Assembly (NCBI RefSeq): GCF_025685425.1
Contig: NZ_JAGTAS010000048.1
Span: 1 to 64,000, forward strand
Direction of reading: 5' to 3'
Source of the DNA: Terriglobus albidus
GTDB taxonomy: Bacteria > Acidobacteriota > Terriglobia > Terriglobales > Acidobacteriaceae
DNA length: 64,000 bases
Shown: piece after piece, positions 1,852 through 62,751 of the stretch
Layout of the letters: each line of letters starts with the position of its first letter
Numbering within the stretch: the stretch's first letter is position 1
The notes under the pieces: model-generated
What the model was told of the DNA's origin: nothing
The model's input: the letters and a program-made list of their open reading frames with translations, nothing else
Database searches by the model: none
Made by a program: the position numbers and the translations under genes

Positions 1852-1996
1852 AAGTTCCGGCAAATTAGGGGTCTATTGCTTAGGGTTTGGATGTGCCGGC
1901 TATCGCTCCGATGCAGTTTATTCACCGGTCGCAGGCTGCTCATTAAATGCGCCGAGGTTTCCCGTGCAGGCAGAGCGCGGTACGATCTATATCGAA

Positions 1997-2107
1997 AGCA
2001 TTTTTCCTGTTGCTGGGTATCCCGGAAGAGGGAGTGCAGCGGCGTTTTCATTGCGGAAACGCCCATAGATGCGGATGCCCTACTCTAGCCCTACAGGAAA
2101 AAATGCT
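1997..2107. repeat. 111-bp palindromic element, copy 1
   Basis: The ends are inverted repeats: AGCATTTTTCCTGT at the left and ACAGGAAAAAATGCT at the right. A central hairpin of GGCGTTTTC-type arms lies at 2041-2063. The same 111-bp element occurs at 22650-22760 and, in reverse orientation, at 61952-62062. The right end contains an ATG in frame with the downstream nucleotidase gene. No target-site duplication is visible. Confidence 0.85.
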
Positions 2108-2114
2108 AAGCCCT

Positions 2115-2690
2115 ATGTCGCTGAAAAGAATCGCAATCGATATGGATGAGGTAATGGCGGACACGCTCAGTGAGCACATTGCCCGCTACAACCGAGATCA
2201 CGGCGAGCGGATTACGAAGGAAGATCTCACCGGTAAGTGGCTCTGGGACGTGGTCTCGGTCGACCGCCACCATATATTGCAGCAGTACCTCTCCAGTGAG
2301 GACTTCTTCGCAGACCTGCCCATCATGGAAGATGCGCAGCGGGTGATTCAGGCGCTGCAGGCGAGGTACGAGGTCTTTATCGCCTCGGCGGCCATGGAAG
2401 TGCCGTCCTCGTTCGCGGCGAAGTTTCGCTGGCTGGAGCGCCACTTCCCCTTTCTTCCGCCCTCTCATATCGTCTTCTGCGGCGACAAGGGAATCATCGA
2501 TGCGGATTATCTGATCGACGACAATCCCCGACAGTTCCGCCGGTTCAAGGGCGAAGGCATCCTGTTCACCTCGCCGCACAACAAGCTGATCAAGGGCTAT
2601 CGGCGGGTGAATAACTGGCTCGATGTGGAAGAGCTTTTCCTGGGGGCGGCTGTTGGCTCCGGCGGTCTGCAGGAAAAGCTGATTCCGTAG
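2115..2690 (+). CDS. 5'(3')-deoxyribonucleotidase-like HAD hydrolase (NT5C family)
   Basis: Predicted cytosolic phosphatase of the 5'-nucleotidase type C family, about 191 residues, which removes phosphate from (deoxy)nucleoside monophosphates. The N-terminus carries the HAD motif I DMDEVMAD, with nucleophile Asp and acid/base Asp two residues on. IASAAM fits the Ser/Thr motif II, and DYLIDDNPRQF fits the acidic motif IV. The start is taken at the ATG of MSLKRIAIDMDE. An ATG 12 bases upstream (MLSP) is in frame, but it belongs to the right arm of the 111-bp repeat, and the longer frame upstream is only the repeat read through. The gene stands alone, and the substrate is inferred from family resemblance. 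Confidence 0.85.
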   Translation: MSLKRIAIDMDEVMADTLSEHIARYNRDHGERITKEDLTGKWLWDVVSVDRHHILQQYLSSEDFFADLPIMEDAQRVIQALQARYEVFIASAAMEVPSSFAAKFRWLERHFPFLPPSHIVFCGDKGIIDADYLIDDNPRQFRRFKGEGILFTSPHNKLIKGYRRVNNWLDVEELFLGAAVGSGGLQEKLIP

Positions 2691-17642: not shown

Positions 17643-20093
17643 TTACTGGCAGGCTTCGCAGCTCTCGGGATTCTCGAGCGAGCAGGCGATGGCCTCAGAG
17701 GGCGTATAGGTGGTGGTAGCGGCGGGAGCGGCTGCCGGAGCAGTCTGCCGCGCGCTGGAGCCCTGAATGGTGGTCTTGGCGATACGCGTCGCCGGGCGCG
17801 AGCGCAGGTAGTAGGTGGTCTTGATGCCGTTCTTCCAGGCATACATGTACATCGACGACAGCTTGCCAATGTTCGGGCTCTCGGCGAAGAGATTCAGGCT
17901 CTGCGACTGGTCGATGTAGGCTCCGCGGTCGCGCGCCATATCGATCAGGGAGCGCATGGGGATCTCCCACACGGTGCGGTAGACCAGCTTCAGATCGTCC
18001 GGAAGCTCGGCGATGCCCTGTACGGAGCCCTCGCTCAGCTTCAGACGCTGCCGCATCTCTTCGTTCCACAGACCGCGCTCTTTCAGCTCGTTCACCAGGT
18101 ACTTGTTCACCTGCAGGAACTCGCCCGACAGCGTCTCCCGCTTGAAGAGGTTTGAGATCTGGGGTTCGATGCACTCGTAGCAGCCGACGATCGATGCGAT
18201 CGTGGCTGTCGGAGCAATGGCTATAAGCAGCGAGTTGCGAACACCGAACTGCTTGATGCGCTCACGCAATGCATCCCAGCGCGCGGTATCTTCCGGAACC
18301 ACGTTCCAGAGATCGAACTGCAGCTTACCCTCGGCGAGACGGCTCTGCGCGAAGGCCTCGTGAGCGCCGAAACGCTCGGCGAGCTGATTGCTGGCGACCA
18401 GGGCGTGATAGTAGATCTCTTCCTGGATCTTGCGCGAGAGCTCACGAGCCTCGGGAGAGTCGAAAGCGATCTTCATCTGGAAGAAGACATCCTGCAGTCC
18501 CATCAGGCCCAGGCCTACCGGCCGCCATTTGGCGTTGGACTTCGCCGCGGGCTCGACGGGGTAGTAGTTGATGTCGATTACGCGATCGAGCATCGGGAGG
18601 GCGATGCGAACGGTCTCGGCCAGCTTGGCGAAATCGAACTTACCCTCCGGAGTGAGGTAGAGCGCCAGGTTGATGGAACCCAGATTGCAGACGGCGGTCT
18701 CGTCCTTGCTGCTCACCTCGGTGATCTCGGTGCACAGGTTTGAGAGATGCACGGTGTTGCCGGGAGCGCCAGTCTGGTTGCACTTCAGGTTGCAGGCATC
18801 CTTGAAGGTCATCCAGCCATTGCCGGTCTCGGCCAGCGTACGCATCATGCGGGCGTAGAGATCGCGAGCCTTTACCTGACGGCGGTACTTCTGCTCTGCC
18901 TCGGCCTGCTCGTAAGCGGCCTTGAAGGCATCGCCGAAGAGGTCAGGAAGCTGTGGAACATCCTTCGGATCGAAGAGCGACCACATGCCGTCGGCATCCA
19001 CGCGCTCCATGAAGAGGTCGGGGATCCAGTTGGCCAGATTTAGGTTGTAGGTACGGCGGGCGTGGTCGCCGGTGTTGTCGCGCAGCTCCAGGAACTGTTC
19101 GATGTCGGCGTGCCACGGCTCGAGGTAGACGCAGCAGGCTCCCTTACGCTTGCCGCCCTGGTTTACCGCGGCGACAGAGGAGTCCAGCGTGCGCAGCCAC
19201 GGCACAATGCCGTTGCTCAGGCCATTGGTGGCGCGGATCAGCGAACCTTCGCTGCGAACGCGGTGAAAGGCGAGGCCGATGCCGCCGGAGAACTTCGAGA
19301 GCATCGCGACCGATTTGTAGGCGTCATAGATCGACTCCAGCGAGTCCGACGGAGAGTCATGCAGATAGCAGCTCGACATCTGCGCATGCTTGGTACCGGA
19401 GTTGAACAGCGTCGGCGAAGAGGGCATGTACTCGTGCGATGCGATCAGGCGATAGAACTCGATTGCCTCAGCAGGTGTGCCGGCAAGCCCGCAGGAGACG
19501 CGGAGGAAGAAGTACTGCGGCGTTTCGATGACGCGGCGCGAGATCGGATCGCGCAGCAGATAGCGGTCATAGACGGTGCGCAGGCCGAAGTATTCGAAAC
19601 GGTCGCTGAACTCATCGTCGATGGCGTGATTCAGCTTGCGTGCATGCGTGTTCACGAACTCGGCAACGGCCTTGTTCACCACACCCTCGGCATGTCCATA
19701 AGCGATGGACTGCGAGAACGAGTGCAGGTTCTGGTTGGCAACCTCTTTGTGAATAGTGGCCAGCAGCAGGCGGGCCGCCAGCCGCGAGTACTGCGGCTCC
19801 TCGGCGATCAGTGCCGCGGCGGTGTCGATGGAGATCTTGTCCAGCTCCCGTGTGGTTGCGCCGTCGTACAGGCCGCCGATGGTCTTCGATGCAACACGGA
19901 TCGCATCGACACCGTTTAGTCCCTGGGCGCAGCGCTGTACCGCGCGCACGATCTTGTTGACGTCGACCGGCTCCAGCGAGCCGTTGCGCTTGCGCACATG
20001 CATGACTGCGGTCTCAGAGGCAGGCGCCGGGAAACCCGGATGTACATCATGCAGTGTGGTCTGCGAAATGGGATGGGTGGAGAGGGTGGCCAT
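17643..20093 (-). CDS. nrdA: Class Ia ribonucleotide reductase, large (alpha) subunit
   Basis: 816-residue catalytic subunit that reduces ribonucleoside diphosphates. An N-terminal ATP-cone (about 30-115, VRKRNGSLEPVDVNKIVRAV) gives overall activity control by ATP/dATP. The catalytic barrel holds the active-site cysteines expected from the E. coli enzyme: SSCYLHD, NLCTEITE and AVCNLGSIN. The C-terminal swinging Cys pair is ESCEACQ. About 55 residues longer than E. coli NrdA. Translation starts at the ATG at 20093, behind AAGGAG at 20109-20104. That ribosome-binding site can pair with an upstream arm in the riboswitch leader. nrdB follows on the same strand. No nrdR-box pair was recognised. 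Confidence 0.97.
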   Translation of the reverse strand: MATLSTHPISQTTLHDVHPGFPAPASETAVMHVRKRNGSLEPVDVNKIVRAVQRCAQGLNGVDAIRVASKTIGGLYDGATTRELDKISIDTAAALIAEEPQYSRLAARLLLATIHKEVANQNLHSFSQSIAYGHAEGVVNKAVAEFVNTHARKLNHAIDDEFSDRFEYFGLRTVYDRYLLRDPISRRVIETPQYFFLRVSCGLAGTPAEAIEFYRLIASHEYMPSSPTLFNSGTKHAQMSSCYLHDSPSDSLESIYDAYKSVAMLSKFSGGIGLAFHRVRSEGSLIRATNGLSNGIVPWLRTLDSSVAAVNQGGKRKGACCVYLEPWHADIEQFLELRDNTGDHARRTYNLNLANWIPDLFMERVDADGMWSLFDPKDVPQLPDLFGDAFKAAYEQAEAEQKYRRQVKARDLYARMMRTLAETGNGWMTFKDACNLKCNQTGAPGNTVHLSNLCTEITEVSSKDETAVCNLGSINLALYLTPEGKFDFAKLAETVRIALPMLDRVIDINYYPVEPAAKSNAKWRPVGLGLMGLQDVFFQMKIAFDSPEARELSRKIQEEIYYHALVASNQLAERFGAHEAFAQSRLAEGKLQFDLWNVVPEDTARWDALRERIKQFGVRNSLLIAIAPTATIASIVGCYECIEPQISNLFKRETLSGEFLQVNKYLVNELKERGLWNEEMRQRLKLSEGSVQGIAELPDDLKLVYRTVWEIPMRSLIDMARDRGAYIDQSQSLNLFAESPNIGKLSSMYMYAWKNGIKTTYYLRSRPATRIAKTTIQGSSARQTAPAAAPAATTTYTPSEAIACSLENPESCEACQ

Positions 20094-20300
20094 CGCTCAT
20101 GAGCTCCTTGTCACCGGCCTCTGCGGTCGTGGCGGGAAAGGAGGGCTTCCAGGGTGCGAGCACGACAAGGGCACCTGAGCCGCTGACCACGCCATTCCCT
20201 CCGCGGGGACGATGATTGCGTATTTCCTCACGGCAGGTGCTCGGACTTTAACCGTTGCGGGACAGTGCCGGGTTTCCACCGGTCTTTCCCTGCACATCGT
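20094..20300 (-). promoter_or_regulatory. Cobalamin (B12) riboswitch leader of nrdAB
   Basis: Minus-strand reading gives the conserved aptamer parts in order: GGGAAAGACC, GGTGGAAACCCGGCACTG, CCCGCAACGG and the B12 box AAGTCCGAGCACCTGCC (within 20226-20248). ACGATG (20300-20295) can pair with CATCGT (20214-20209) as the closing P1 stem, so the aptamer spans about 20209-20300. In the 115-base expression platform, CCTTGTC (20170-20164) is complementary to GACAAGG (20112-20106), which includes part of the nrdA Shine-Dalgarno AAGGAG. This points to control of translation. Bases 20301-20470 hold upstream sequence for both this leader and the transaldolase gene; nothing else was recognised there. 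Confidence 0.88.
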
Positions 20301-20470
20301 GAAGTTTCTCCACAGTAACTTGCGATCGATTAGAAAGCAACCCAAGATATAGCGGTCGATGTGGAAATGTGGCCTAGGCCTTGGATTGTCGCGGGAAGCG
20401 ATGTATTGGTAGGACCACACCTGCTATCCGCCTGGAAGGTGTAGTCTTAAAGTGCGAGGAGAACTTTCCA

Positions 20471-22624: not shown

Positions 22625-22649
22625 AGAGGTTCGAGAACAGAAGAGTTAG

Positions 22650-22760
22650 AACATTTTTCCCTGTTGCTGGGTATCCCTGAAGAGGAGTGCCGCGGCGTTT
22701 TTATTGCGGAAAACGCCCATAGATGCGGAAATCCTAGGCTACATCTACAGGGAAAATGCT
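22650..22760. repeat. 111-bp palindromic element, copy 2
   Basis: Same orientation as copy 1. End arms are ACATTTTTCCCTGT and ACAGGGAAAATGCT, and the central hairpin lies at 22694-22717. It ends four bases before the TetR operator palindrome, between the divergent GNAT and tetR genes. Confidence 0.85.
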
Positions 22761-22764
22761 ACTG

Positions 22765-61792: not shown

Positions 61793-61951
61793 GGTTTCCC
61801 TTACGGAGTTACTGCATCGAACAACGTTTTTCAGTATACCCCAGATTCTGCCCGGAACGGCTGTGTCCTCGCTCAGTTCAGCCGCCTCCCGGCGGGTTGC
61901 ACCATGGTTGGAGCACGGCCATTACCGGTTCGGTAGTTCTGAGCCGGCTAG

Positions 61952-62062
61952 AGAGCATTTTCACTGTAGGTGTCCTGCAGGGCTTCCACATCGATGGGCG
62001 TTTTCCAATGAAAACGCCGCTGCACGCCTTTCCGGGATACCCAGCAACAGTGAAAATGCTCT
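61952..62062. repeat. 111-bp palindromic element, copy 3 (reversed)
   Basis: Perfect 16-base end repeats: AGAGCATTTTCACTGT (61952-61967) and ACAGTGAAAATGCTCT (62047-62062). Central hairpin GGCGTTTTC-CAAT-GAAAACGCC at 61997-62018. Opposite orientation to copies 1 and 2. The right end overlaps the TAG stop of the GNAT gene. The rest of the gap (61793-61951) holds rpmI upstream sequence with no gene. Confidence 0.88.
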
Positions 62063-62600
62063 AAATCCTCTTCCGCATCCTCACTACCTCAACCGTCAGT
62101 CCCCCACCCACCGGCGCGTGGTGTCGCTCGATCTCGACATACCCGTGCTTCAGGTAAACCGGATACCCGGTCAGCGTTGCACCCATCTCCAGCTCCCGGA
62201 AACCCTCTGCCGCGGCGGCCTCTTCGGCGGTCCTCAGCACCAGGCTGCCCAGGCCTTTCCGGGCATGGTCCGGATGCACGAAGATCGCCCGGATCTTGGC
62301 TGCGTCTTTTGCGGGGTCAAGGAGTTCCGGTTCTTTGGCTTCGACTTGCGCATCGCCTCCGTAAAGGGTCTTCCGGCGGCTCCAGCCTCCACAGGCTGCG
62401 AAAGTGCCGTCGGGCGCCTCTACGACGAAGTAGGTGCCATCTGCGACCAGCCGGGTATCGACGGTGAAGATGGTGCGGACGGCGGCATTAATCTCCGCCG
62501 GGCCGTAGTCTCCGGCCTGCAGCGAACGGACGGAGAGCTCCAGCAACTGTTGCAAGTAGGGGACATCCGCGGCTCGTGCCGTGCGCAGGGTGTATTCCAT
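62061..62600 (-). CDS. GNAT-family N-acetyltransferase
   Basis: About 179 residues, single GNAT domain. MEYTLRTARAADVPYLQQLL starts it, AKIRAIFVHPDHARKGLGSL with LVLRTAEEAAAAEG is the acetyl-CoA loop, and YPVYLKHGYVEIERH closes the fold. The start is the ATG at 62600; an in-frame ATG at 62645 would extend it with GC-rich residues. The stop TAG lies in the end arm of the 111-bp repeat. Substrate unknown. Confidence 0.88.
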   Translation of the reverse strand: MEYTLRTARAADVPYLQQLLELSVRSLQAGDYGPAEINAAVRTIFTVDTRLVADGTYFVVEAPDGTFAACGGWSRRKTLYGGDAQVEAKEPELLDPAKDAAKIRAIFVHPDHARKGLGSLVLRTAEEAAAAEGFRELEMGATLTGYPVYLKHGYVEIERHHAPVGGGLTVEVVRMRKRI

Positions 62601-62751
62601 GGAAAAAGTGTGCCATTTCCCGCGAAAAACGCCATGTTTGGGCATCTGGGCACACCAGCGGGAAGACCCCCGAACGTGCTAAAATAAGCATGTCATCGAA
62701 GTTTCGAACGGCCATGCTAAGACGCTCAAATTCAGTAATTTACGGAGCCTG

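Follow-up and report, generated by a model that had tools for sequence, protein, structure and literature searches.

A palindromic repeat abundant in Acidobacteriaceae genomes is very probably an IS630-type MITE with copies concentrated at gene stop codons

The nearest known element to the palindrome described here is RUP of the pneumococcus, a MITE related to IS630-Spn1. In the passages of PMC2229807 and PMC3049150 that deal with it, RUP is 107 bp long, occurs in 108-110 copies, is intergenic, and has IS630-like terminal inverted repeats and a TA-containing target. The Terriglobus element shares the size, copy abundance, intergenic placement, IS630-like ends and TA target, the likeness being one to the description given in those passages. 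However, the hosts are unrelated, the helper proposed for RUP lies in the same genome whereas none was found here, and the inverted repeats of RUP, as tabled in the source passages, comprise 9 contiguous pairs compared with 15 here. A second repeat of S. pneumoniae, BOX, supplies the stop codon of the overlapped gene in 36 cases according to the part of PMC3049150 that covers it, and the Terriglobus element likewise provides a stop codon. As described there, BOX differs in being modular, with ends similar to ISSpn2 and not to IS630-Spn1, and its stop codon lies inside the repeat, whereas here the stop consists of the flanking TA and the first base of the element. QMITE2 of Coxiella, in the relevant portion of PMC5896051, is a MITE at a gene 3′-end that shifts the position of the stop codon and is similar in that respect; the one gene described in that portion is extended, whereas 33 of 97 copies of the Terriglobus element leave the reading frame ending where it did before.

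Other small repeats share fewer features. For the Nezha MITE of cyanobacteria, the proposed mover is an insertion sequence with similar ends (ISNpu3-like; passage in PMC3049150), and the resemblance, again to the description in that passage, lies in a MITE paired with such a mover in a different host. Correia/NEMIS and ERIC are small palindromic MITEs with TA at their termini and a target duplication (sections of PMC2229807). On the account in those sections, the small palindrome, terminal TA and target duplication are shared, and the hosts differ. The ends of Correia/NEMIS and ERIC differ from those of the Terriglobus element, and NEMIS transcripts are cut by RNase III. REP sequences are 20-40 bp with a GTAG or CGTC tag (excerpt of PMC3733652). 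REP/BIME with RAYT are also palindromic, intergenic and found in tandem arrays, but at 20-40 bp and with the GTAG/CGTC tag given in that excerpt they differ from an element of ∼112 bp that duplicates TA. REP/BIME are often near gene 3′-ends. No description of the Terriglobus element was found in the available portions of the open-licence literature on MITEs in Acidobacteria, or of that on IS630 MITEs or stop-codon repeats, and a term search of the available text of a review of prokaryotic MITEs (PMC10969869) returned no occurrence of 'stop codon', 'IS630' or 'Acidobacter'. The element resembles pneumococcal RUP, as far as RUP is described in the passages cited, in kind, and its noteworthy parts are a paired arm segment, a conserved core and a stop-codon niche.

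The window, the whole stretch of 64,000 nucleotides of Terriglobus albidus DNA that was analysed, carries three copies, which lie where an earlier note had placed them, with the third reversed and the internal order common to all. Copy 1 (1996..2106, forward strand) has an altered left end and a right end without the terminal TC, and is followed by a TA at 2107..2108; its site is empty in a single-contig relative, G001, and reads TATATATAAGCCC there. Copy 2 (22649..22759, forward strand), which also lacks the terminal TC of the right end, lies between a TA at 22647..22648 and a TA at 22760..22761. Copy 3 lies at 61953..62061 on the reverse strand. The three are not of equal length, as had been claimed, but differ by small indels (∼111, ∼111 and ∼109 bp within our own bounds). 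The end-arm pairs CCTGT/ACAGG in copy 1, CCCTGT/ACAGGG in copy 2 and CACTGT/ACAGTG in copy 3 are as the note gave them. The fold energy of all three is below the dinucleotide-shuffle mean on both strands, with z of -3.4, -3.9 and -7.2 on the better strand.

Many copies are present genome-wide, as the note had anticipated. A 16-mer of the left arm has 282 matches at ≤1 mismatch in the 6.1-Mb host genome, and a reversed control has 0. A profile built from full copies, with a family consensus of 112 bp, gave 124 matches in 1.02 Mb of sampled host DNA; the 100 near full length were used for the host-copy analyses and the 24 partial matches were excluded. One profile set of copies comprised 71 matches, 70 of them near full and 58 once duplicates were removed. 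Among 158 near-full copies from 13 genomes, 85 are exactly 112 bp; 153 fall within 109-114 bp, and the remaining 5 are shorter. A derivative of ∼40 bp (L024, host contig C23, ∼19404-19443) retains both ends and the TA flanks with the interior gone, and no second one like it was seen among the 24 partial matches of the host sample.

Within the genus, the 16-mer has 282, 214, 171 and 162 matches in four of 19 genomes and 0-1 in the other 15, and 0-7 matches were seen outside carriers in an order-level sample of 249 genomes. With a query from G145, which belongs to a second genus in the same family, relatives were detected in 16 of the 23 genomes tried, and this diverged form has at least 31 matches in each of six second-genus genomes, scoring being limited to 38 candidates per genome. 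In genomes other than G145 and G093, the best matches mostly share 75-85% identity with the query along almost its whole length. The exact core sequence occurs in at least 78 contig stretches, and all those listed are titled Acidobacteria, Acidobacteriaceae, Granulicella or Bryocella elongata, the last two of which we take to be Acidobacteria. The cultured Granulicella mallensis X5P3 is among the matches. None was found in viral contigs searched with the exact core pattern, or in plasmids or phages searched with one host copy (E 1e-5). The element is a very abundant repeat of Acidobacteriaceae genomes that can now be given a transposon class along with a target rule and niche.

An alignment of 63 near-full copies shows ends that read YTA|GAGCATTTTC...GAAAATGCTC|TAR, the commonest letters being YTA ahead of GAGCATTTT and TAR behind AAAATGCTC. 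The TA flank is not universal, with T in 45 and A in 53 of the 63 copies on the left, and T in 52 and A in 52 on the right. The terminal inverted repeats comprise 15 pairs, and 92.8% of cells are paired in 60 copies of exactly 112 bp. Sites were compared with their counterparts in relatives, and an exact single TA was found at 5 of the 10 distinct occupied places that have a mapped empty counterpart. At each of the five there is one TA when empty and two when occupied, which identifies the element as an insertion that duplicates TA. One exact place, C39:137342-137452 of the host, is empty in G001, G008, G010 and the non-carrier G018, and host tandem arrays account for two of the five. The place of copy 2 is another: the element is present in the host and at the G010 counterpart, and G008 and G001 have none and read a single TA. 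Here the two-base overlap is exact against the G010 copy, the host copy being short of two right-end bases. The claim that there is no target duplication does not hold for this copy, which has TA on both sides. The remaining 5 of the 10 places differ locally, the smallest difference being one extra base and the largest exceeding 20 bases. In the window, copy 3 has TA on both sides, one of them (61949..61950) two bases (TC) beyond the element end, and copy 1 has kept the right TA alone. Copy 1 is missing from G001, where the left flank is altered, and the G001 sequence is rearranged around the counterpart of copy 3.

Tandem copies are joined head to tail in two ways. The first, TGCTC-TA-GAGC, corresponds to simple insertion into the flanking TA and was found at 7 joints in relatives. 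The second, TGCTC-TAR-(T/C)C-GCATTTT, is one base longer and accounts for all 11 close joints between near-full copies of the host sample (examples on C39 and C28), as well as one array each in G008 and G010. The longer joint may be the trace of an excision that cut two bases in from the 5′-ends.

The ends point to a transposon class. A bacterial IS630 element, ISY100, inserts almost only into TA and duplicates it, according to the part of PMC2170065 concerned. Of the 19 genomes of the genus, 4 have genes matching DDE_3 (IS630-type), and the carrier G010 is without any match. Self-complementary TA-flanked ends were sought around 36 IS630 loci (34 distinct) with the MITE sequence left out of the search, and a pair was found at 17 of the 36 loci, with a TA-flanked pair starting GAGC in 7 distinct elements. 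Two of the IS630 elements, L111 from the same genus and L144, carry the 10-mer GAGCATTTTC at each TA-flanked end, these end pairs having been chosen for matching arms. Behind the 10-mer, at positions 16-20, IS630 ends tend to share a WGSTR-like motif that was recognised by eye, and of the 158 MITE ends on each side, WGVTR at the same positions fits 118 on the left and 112 on the right, which is a descriptive count. The palindrome is short (∼112 bp) and present in high copy number (282 matches), and has no transposase gene, with no frame open across hosts. Contrary to the view that it is not a plain MITE, TA duplication at empty sites and family IS630 transposons with matching ends identify it, very probably, as a non-autonomous DNA transposon (MITE) of the IS630/Tc1-mariner type. 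Several points count against an IS630 origin: no transposase with matching ends was found in the host or in G001, the insertion sequences and the MITE have the ends alone in common, five of the ten empty-site comparisons are unclean, the TA flanks of copies 1 and 3 are irregular, the close host tandem joints have one base more than predicted, and the core is more conserved than a MITE would require.

An IS630 transposase recognising the element ends would cut and paste it in trans, or would once have done so. The putative helper is assigned to IS630 on the basis of the ends and the target. None of the DDE_3 genes in the host or in G001 has matching ends, those present having other ends, and no protein like that of L111 was detected in either genome at E≤1e-20. 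A gap in the 58-contig host genome could hide one, but its absence from single-contig G001 speaks against this. DDE_3 matches from the second genus number 24 across 8 of 19 genomes; many are fragments, none has matching ends on both sides, and the L234 fragment of G145 carries GAGCATTTTC as its right end. From these sequences we infer that a helper with matching ends exists in relatives and that the element is now probably largely orphaned, or served by another transposase. An IS5-type helper (DUF4096) was also considered and rejected, with no match in the host, G001 or G008 and different ends for the single match in G010. Further IS630 copies were noted in passing: one in G008 (L112, contig C122) with CTAGAGC... 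ends beside an integrase-like ORF, seen by eye; two IS630-type copies in G001 (L114 and L115) that share the end pair TTGATTCC/TTGCTTCC; a similar IS630-type copy in the host (L113); and another that is cut at a contig end (L116).

Being palindromic, mostly intergenic and found in tandem arrays, the element could instead have been a REP/BIME of RAYT type, copied by a Y1 (TnpA-REP) transposase, as the earlier note proposed, and Y1 transposases are present in the host (10 matches). That origin is very improbable. Y1 matches occur in 17 of 19 genus genomes regardless of the element, which is abundant in 4, so that the genes do not track the copies. Only the G001 locus, among three carrier loci of one Y1 orthologue, has an element near it, ∼600 bp off, and at another Y1 locus (L055 of G008) the element is ∼1 kb away. 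The length of ∼112 bp, the IS630-like ends and the TA duplicated at empty sites also speak against it, as REP/RAYT-type insertion makes no target duplication. Different short repeats surround the orthologous Y1 (RAYT) gene in each of the three carriers (L069, L033 and L034), as seen by eye.

Gene calls for the placement of the MITE were made with our own codon-score ORF picker, which is not a standard caller. The 100 host copies comprise 82 that are intergenic, 11 over a gene edge, 2 inside genes and 5 at piece edges. Copies had been expected to be always intergenic, and most are (82 of 95 placed), with the 11 at gene edges and the 2 inside genes as the exceptions. Classified YTAR sites number 2654, with 1537 in genes and 1117 in gaps. 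In 55 gaps between genes of the same direction, copies lie a median 5 bp from the upstream gene end and 87 bp from the next start, and 27 copies are ≤10 bp from the gene end compared with 3 that are ≤10 bp from the start. Orientation relative to the genes is unbiased in these gaps, with 24 the same and 31 opposite (P 0.42).

A short coding insert, comparable to the RPE of Rickettsia, might be suspected from the sum of 112 and 2, which gives 114 and is divisible by three, and from frames that are open through copies 1 and 2. This is hardly credible, as no reading frame stays open through almost every copy of the different hosts and only 2 of 100 near-full copies are inside called genes. Variability by codon position (0.207, 0.203 and 0.263) differs weakly and was not counted as coding. 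A coding element was rejected, the best frame being open in 99 of 158 copies.

The position of MITE copies behind genes is exact in many cases. TA together with the first G of the element forms the stop codon of a called gene in 33 of the 97 host copies tested (3 of the 100 were left out), against 190 of the 1351 YTAR sites that lie outside gene bodies and carry no element (odds ratio 3.15, P 2.8e-6); a control site was countable on both strands and a copy once, a bias that runs against the difference. When 148 TA-flanked ends were read upstream, a long coding-like frame ended at TAG in the ratio 24 : 0 : 0 over the three frames. Copy 3 is such a case. The adjoining ORF (62061-62645, GNAT-like by eye) ends at 62061, the first base of the element, and its stop codon TAG (62061..62063, reverse strand) is made of that G and the flanking TA (62062-62063). 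The concentration at stop codons may reflect insertion preference or survival, and the insertions most likely to persist would be those that leave the coding frame undamaged. A target duplication that doubles as a stop codon (TA + G) offers a simple reason for hundreds of copies in a gene-dense genome. At the other side of a gene, the right end of copy 1, AGGAAAAAATGCTAAGCCCTATG, is in frame with the downstream gene (window 1947-2690), and copy 1 may thus add a ribosome site and an earlier start codon to that gene.

Covariation was assessed by swapping arms between copies and comparing within-copy mismatches. In the terminal stem of the 100 host copies, 137 of 1474 cells are mismatched compared with 184.5 ± 4.7 after swapping, and two-sided changes are mostly at pairs 10/103 and 11/102 (11 copies each). 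Over 158 copies from 13 genomes, 233 of 2339 are mismatched, against 418.9 ± 10.1 when arms were swapped freely and 315.3 ± 8.4 when swaps were kept within hosts. The central hairpin behaves differently from the terminal stem. Its mismatches, 37 of 858 in host copies versus 35.7 ± 1.2 swapped, and 81 of 1380 in the 158 copies versus 84.0 ± 2.2 (free) and 82.4 ± 2.2 (within hosts), are at the swapped level, indicating that the hairpin is conserved but does not covary. Covariation as originally proposed is thus upheld for the terminal arms in both sets and not for the central hairpin, and the restriction of its variation to the loop and paired bases finds no support in the swap comparison of host copies.

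In 60 copies of 112 bp (59 distinct), drawn from 77 copies of exactly that length with ≤30 from the host, a choice that favours well-kept copies, the covariation score is 0.150 compared with 0.075 ± 0.005 when shuffled and ≤0.051 when slid, with the relatedness of the copies inflating such scores. Cells changed on both sides number 57 versus 17.8 in shuffles, and such cells occur in 7 of the 15 terminal pairs and, as a single cell, in 1 of the 9 central ones. Counted by pairs, two-sided change shows a moderate excess (8 versus 5.1, reached in 13 of 500 shuffles). RNAalifold of the 60 copies gave -13.99 kcal/mol, the covariation term being just -1.06, and drew the central hairpin slightly differently. 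Among the 7 IS630 elements, the ends of which were chosen for matching arms, one end matches the other at 66 of 70 cells for positions 1-10 and 22 of 35 for positions 11-15, whereas the MITE matches at 1380 of 1549 and 726 of 790, respectively. The MITE thus keeps positions 11-15 paired more than the IS ends do. Stem pairs 10-14 are partly matched in IS630 ends and are held paired by compensating changes in the MITE.

Compensating changes of this kind need not reflect selection. Template switching between the arms of a quasipalindrome can correct one arm to the other, and the arm covariation may have arisen in this way, or by inheritance within a few subfamilies, either of which is compatible with a MITE origin; we regard this as a serious possibility, although somewhat short of an even chance. 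Pair types are largely host-specific, and standard pair types are no more frequent than in shuffles (23 versus 22.0, with 187 of 500 shuffles at least as high). Copies with A-T at pair 11/102 are closer to one another than to others (0.128 versus 0.172), and the change at this pair looks like a subfamily. The change at 10/103 does not, as the T-A copies are no closer to one another (0.182 versus 0.183). The changes of label on the copy tree number 6 and 5 as raw counts. Against correction or shared descent, mismatches are still fewer than in the within-host shuffles given above, and the central hairpin, with a short loop that makes it the easier substrate for switching, shows no excess pairing.

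The core of the MITE was compared between eight host genomes with at least 3 copies each, seven of the eight belonging to one genus. Identity between hosts is 0.883 over the 33-base core (columns 38-70, borders placed by eye once the alignment had been seen), 0.846 and 0.817 over the outer nine bases of each end, 0.877 in columns 90-97, and 0.562 and 0.535 in columns 28-37 and 71-89. None of the 98 core matches in the 1.02 Mb host sample is outside an element, and a scan of 58 IS630 loci with the element profile found no element interior inside an IS630 copy. Two second-genus loci do match the profile, L248 (E 2e-20) and L244 (E 0.002), both lying over 1 kb away from the transposase fragment by which the locus had been picked up, and the L248 match coincides with an element copy from the G145-query search. 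Conservation of the core is the least expected trait, because a MITE should need only its ends. The core, which is without covariation, may act as a hairpin or as a binding sequence.

One explanation, rather unlikely in our view, is that the element has been domesticated by the host as a structured RNA or protein-binding element at gene 3′-ends, with a role in mRNA stabilisation, processing or attenuation, which would be compatible with a MITE origin. Covariation of the terminal stem, a core conserved between hosts like the ends (0.883 versus 0.846 and 0.817) and the concentration of copies directly behind stop codons would all fit. However, orientation is unbiased (24 versus 31), several sites are empty in close relatives, the central hairpin does not covary, and an Rfam scan of the window at gathering score has no match at the element. 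The remaining traits are explicable by MITE biology and selection on amplifying copies. The one Rfam match in the window lies elsewhere, an AdoCbl-II (cobalamin) riboswitch at 20227-20303 on the reverse strand (60.5 bits).

For the IS630-type MITE, it is possible, and we suggest it tentatively, that the folded state itself is under selection, with the core and stem pairs 10-14 forming a cis-acting device in the MITE lineage. On the main reading as a MITE, the matched stem and conserved core would have been kept since amplifying copies need both in cis, and the need would be for transposition, or for tolerance in mRNA 3′-ends, rather than for a host benefit from each copy. The kind of element is otherwise ordinary; what is unusual is that the arms change together and that an internal stretch is nearly unchanged across two genera. 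If the suggestion is correct, the device would be needed for amplification by a transposase that the element does not carry or, alternatively, would make a copy tolerable as a 3′ hairpin on a stop codon that the copy itself has regenerated. With host-specific subfamilies, compensating arm changes and a nearly invariant core, the element provides a natural data set for asking what keeps small transposons palindromic.
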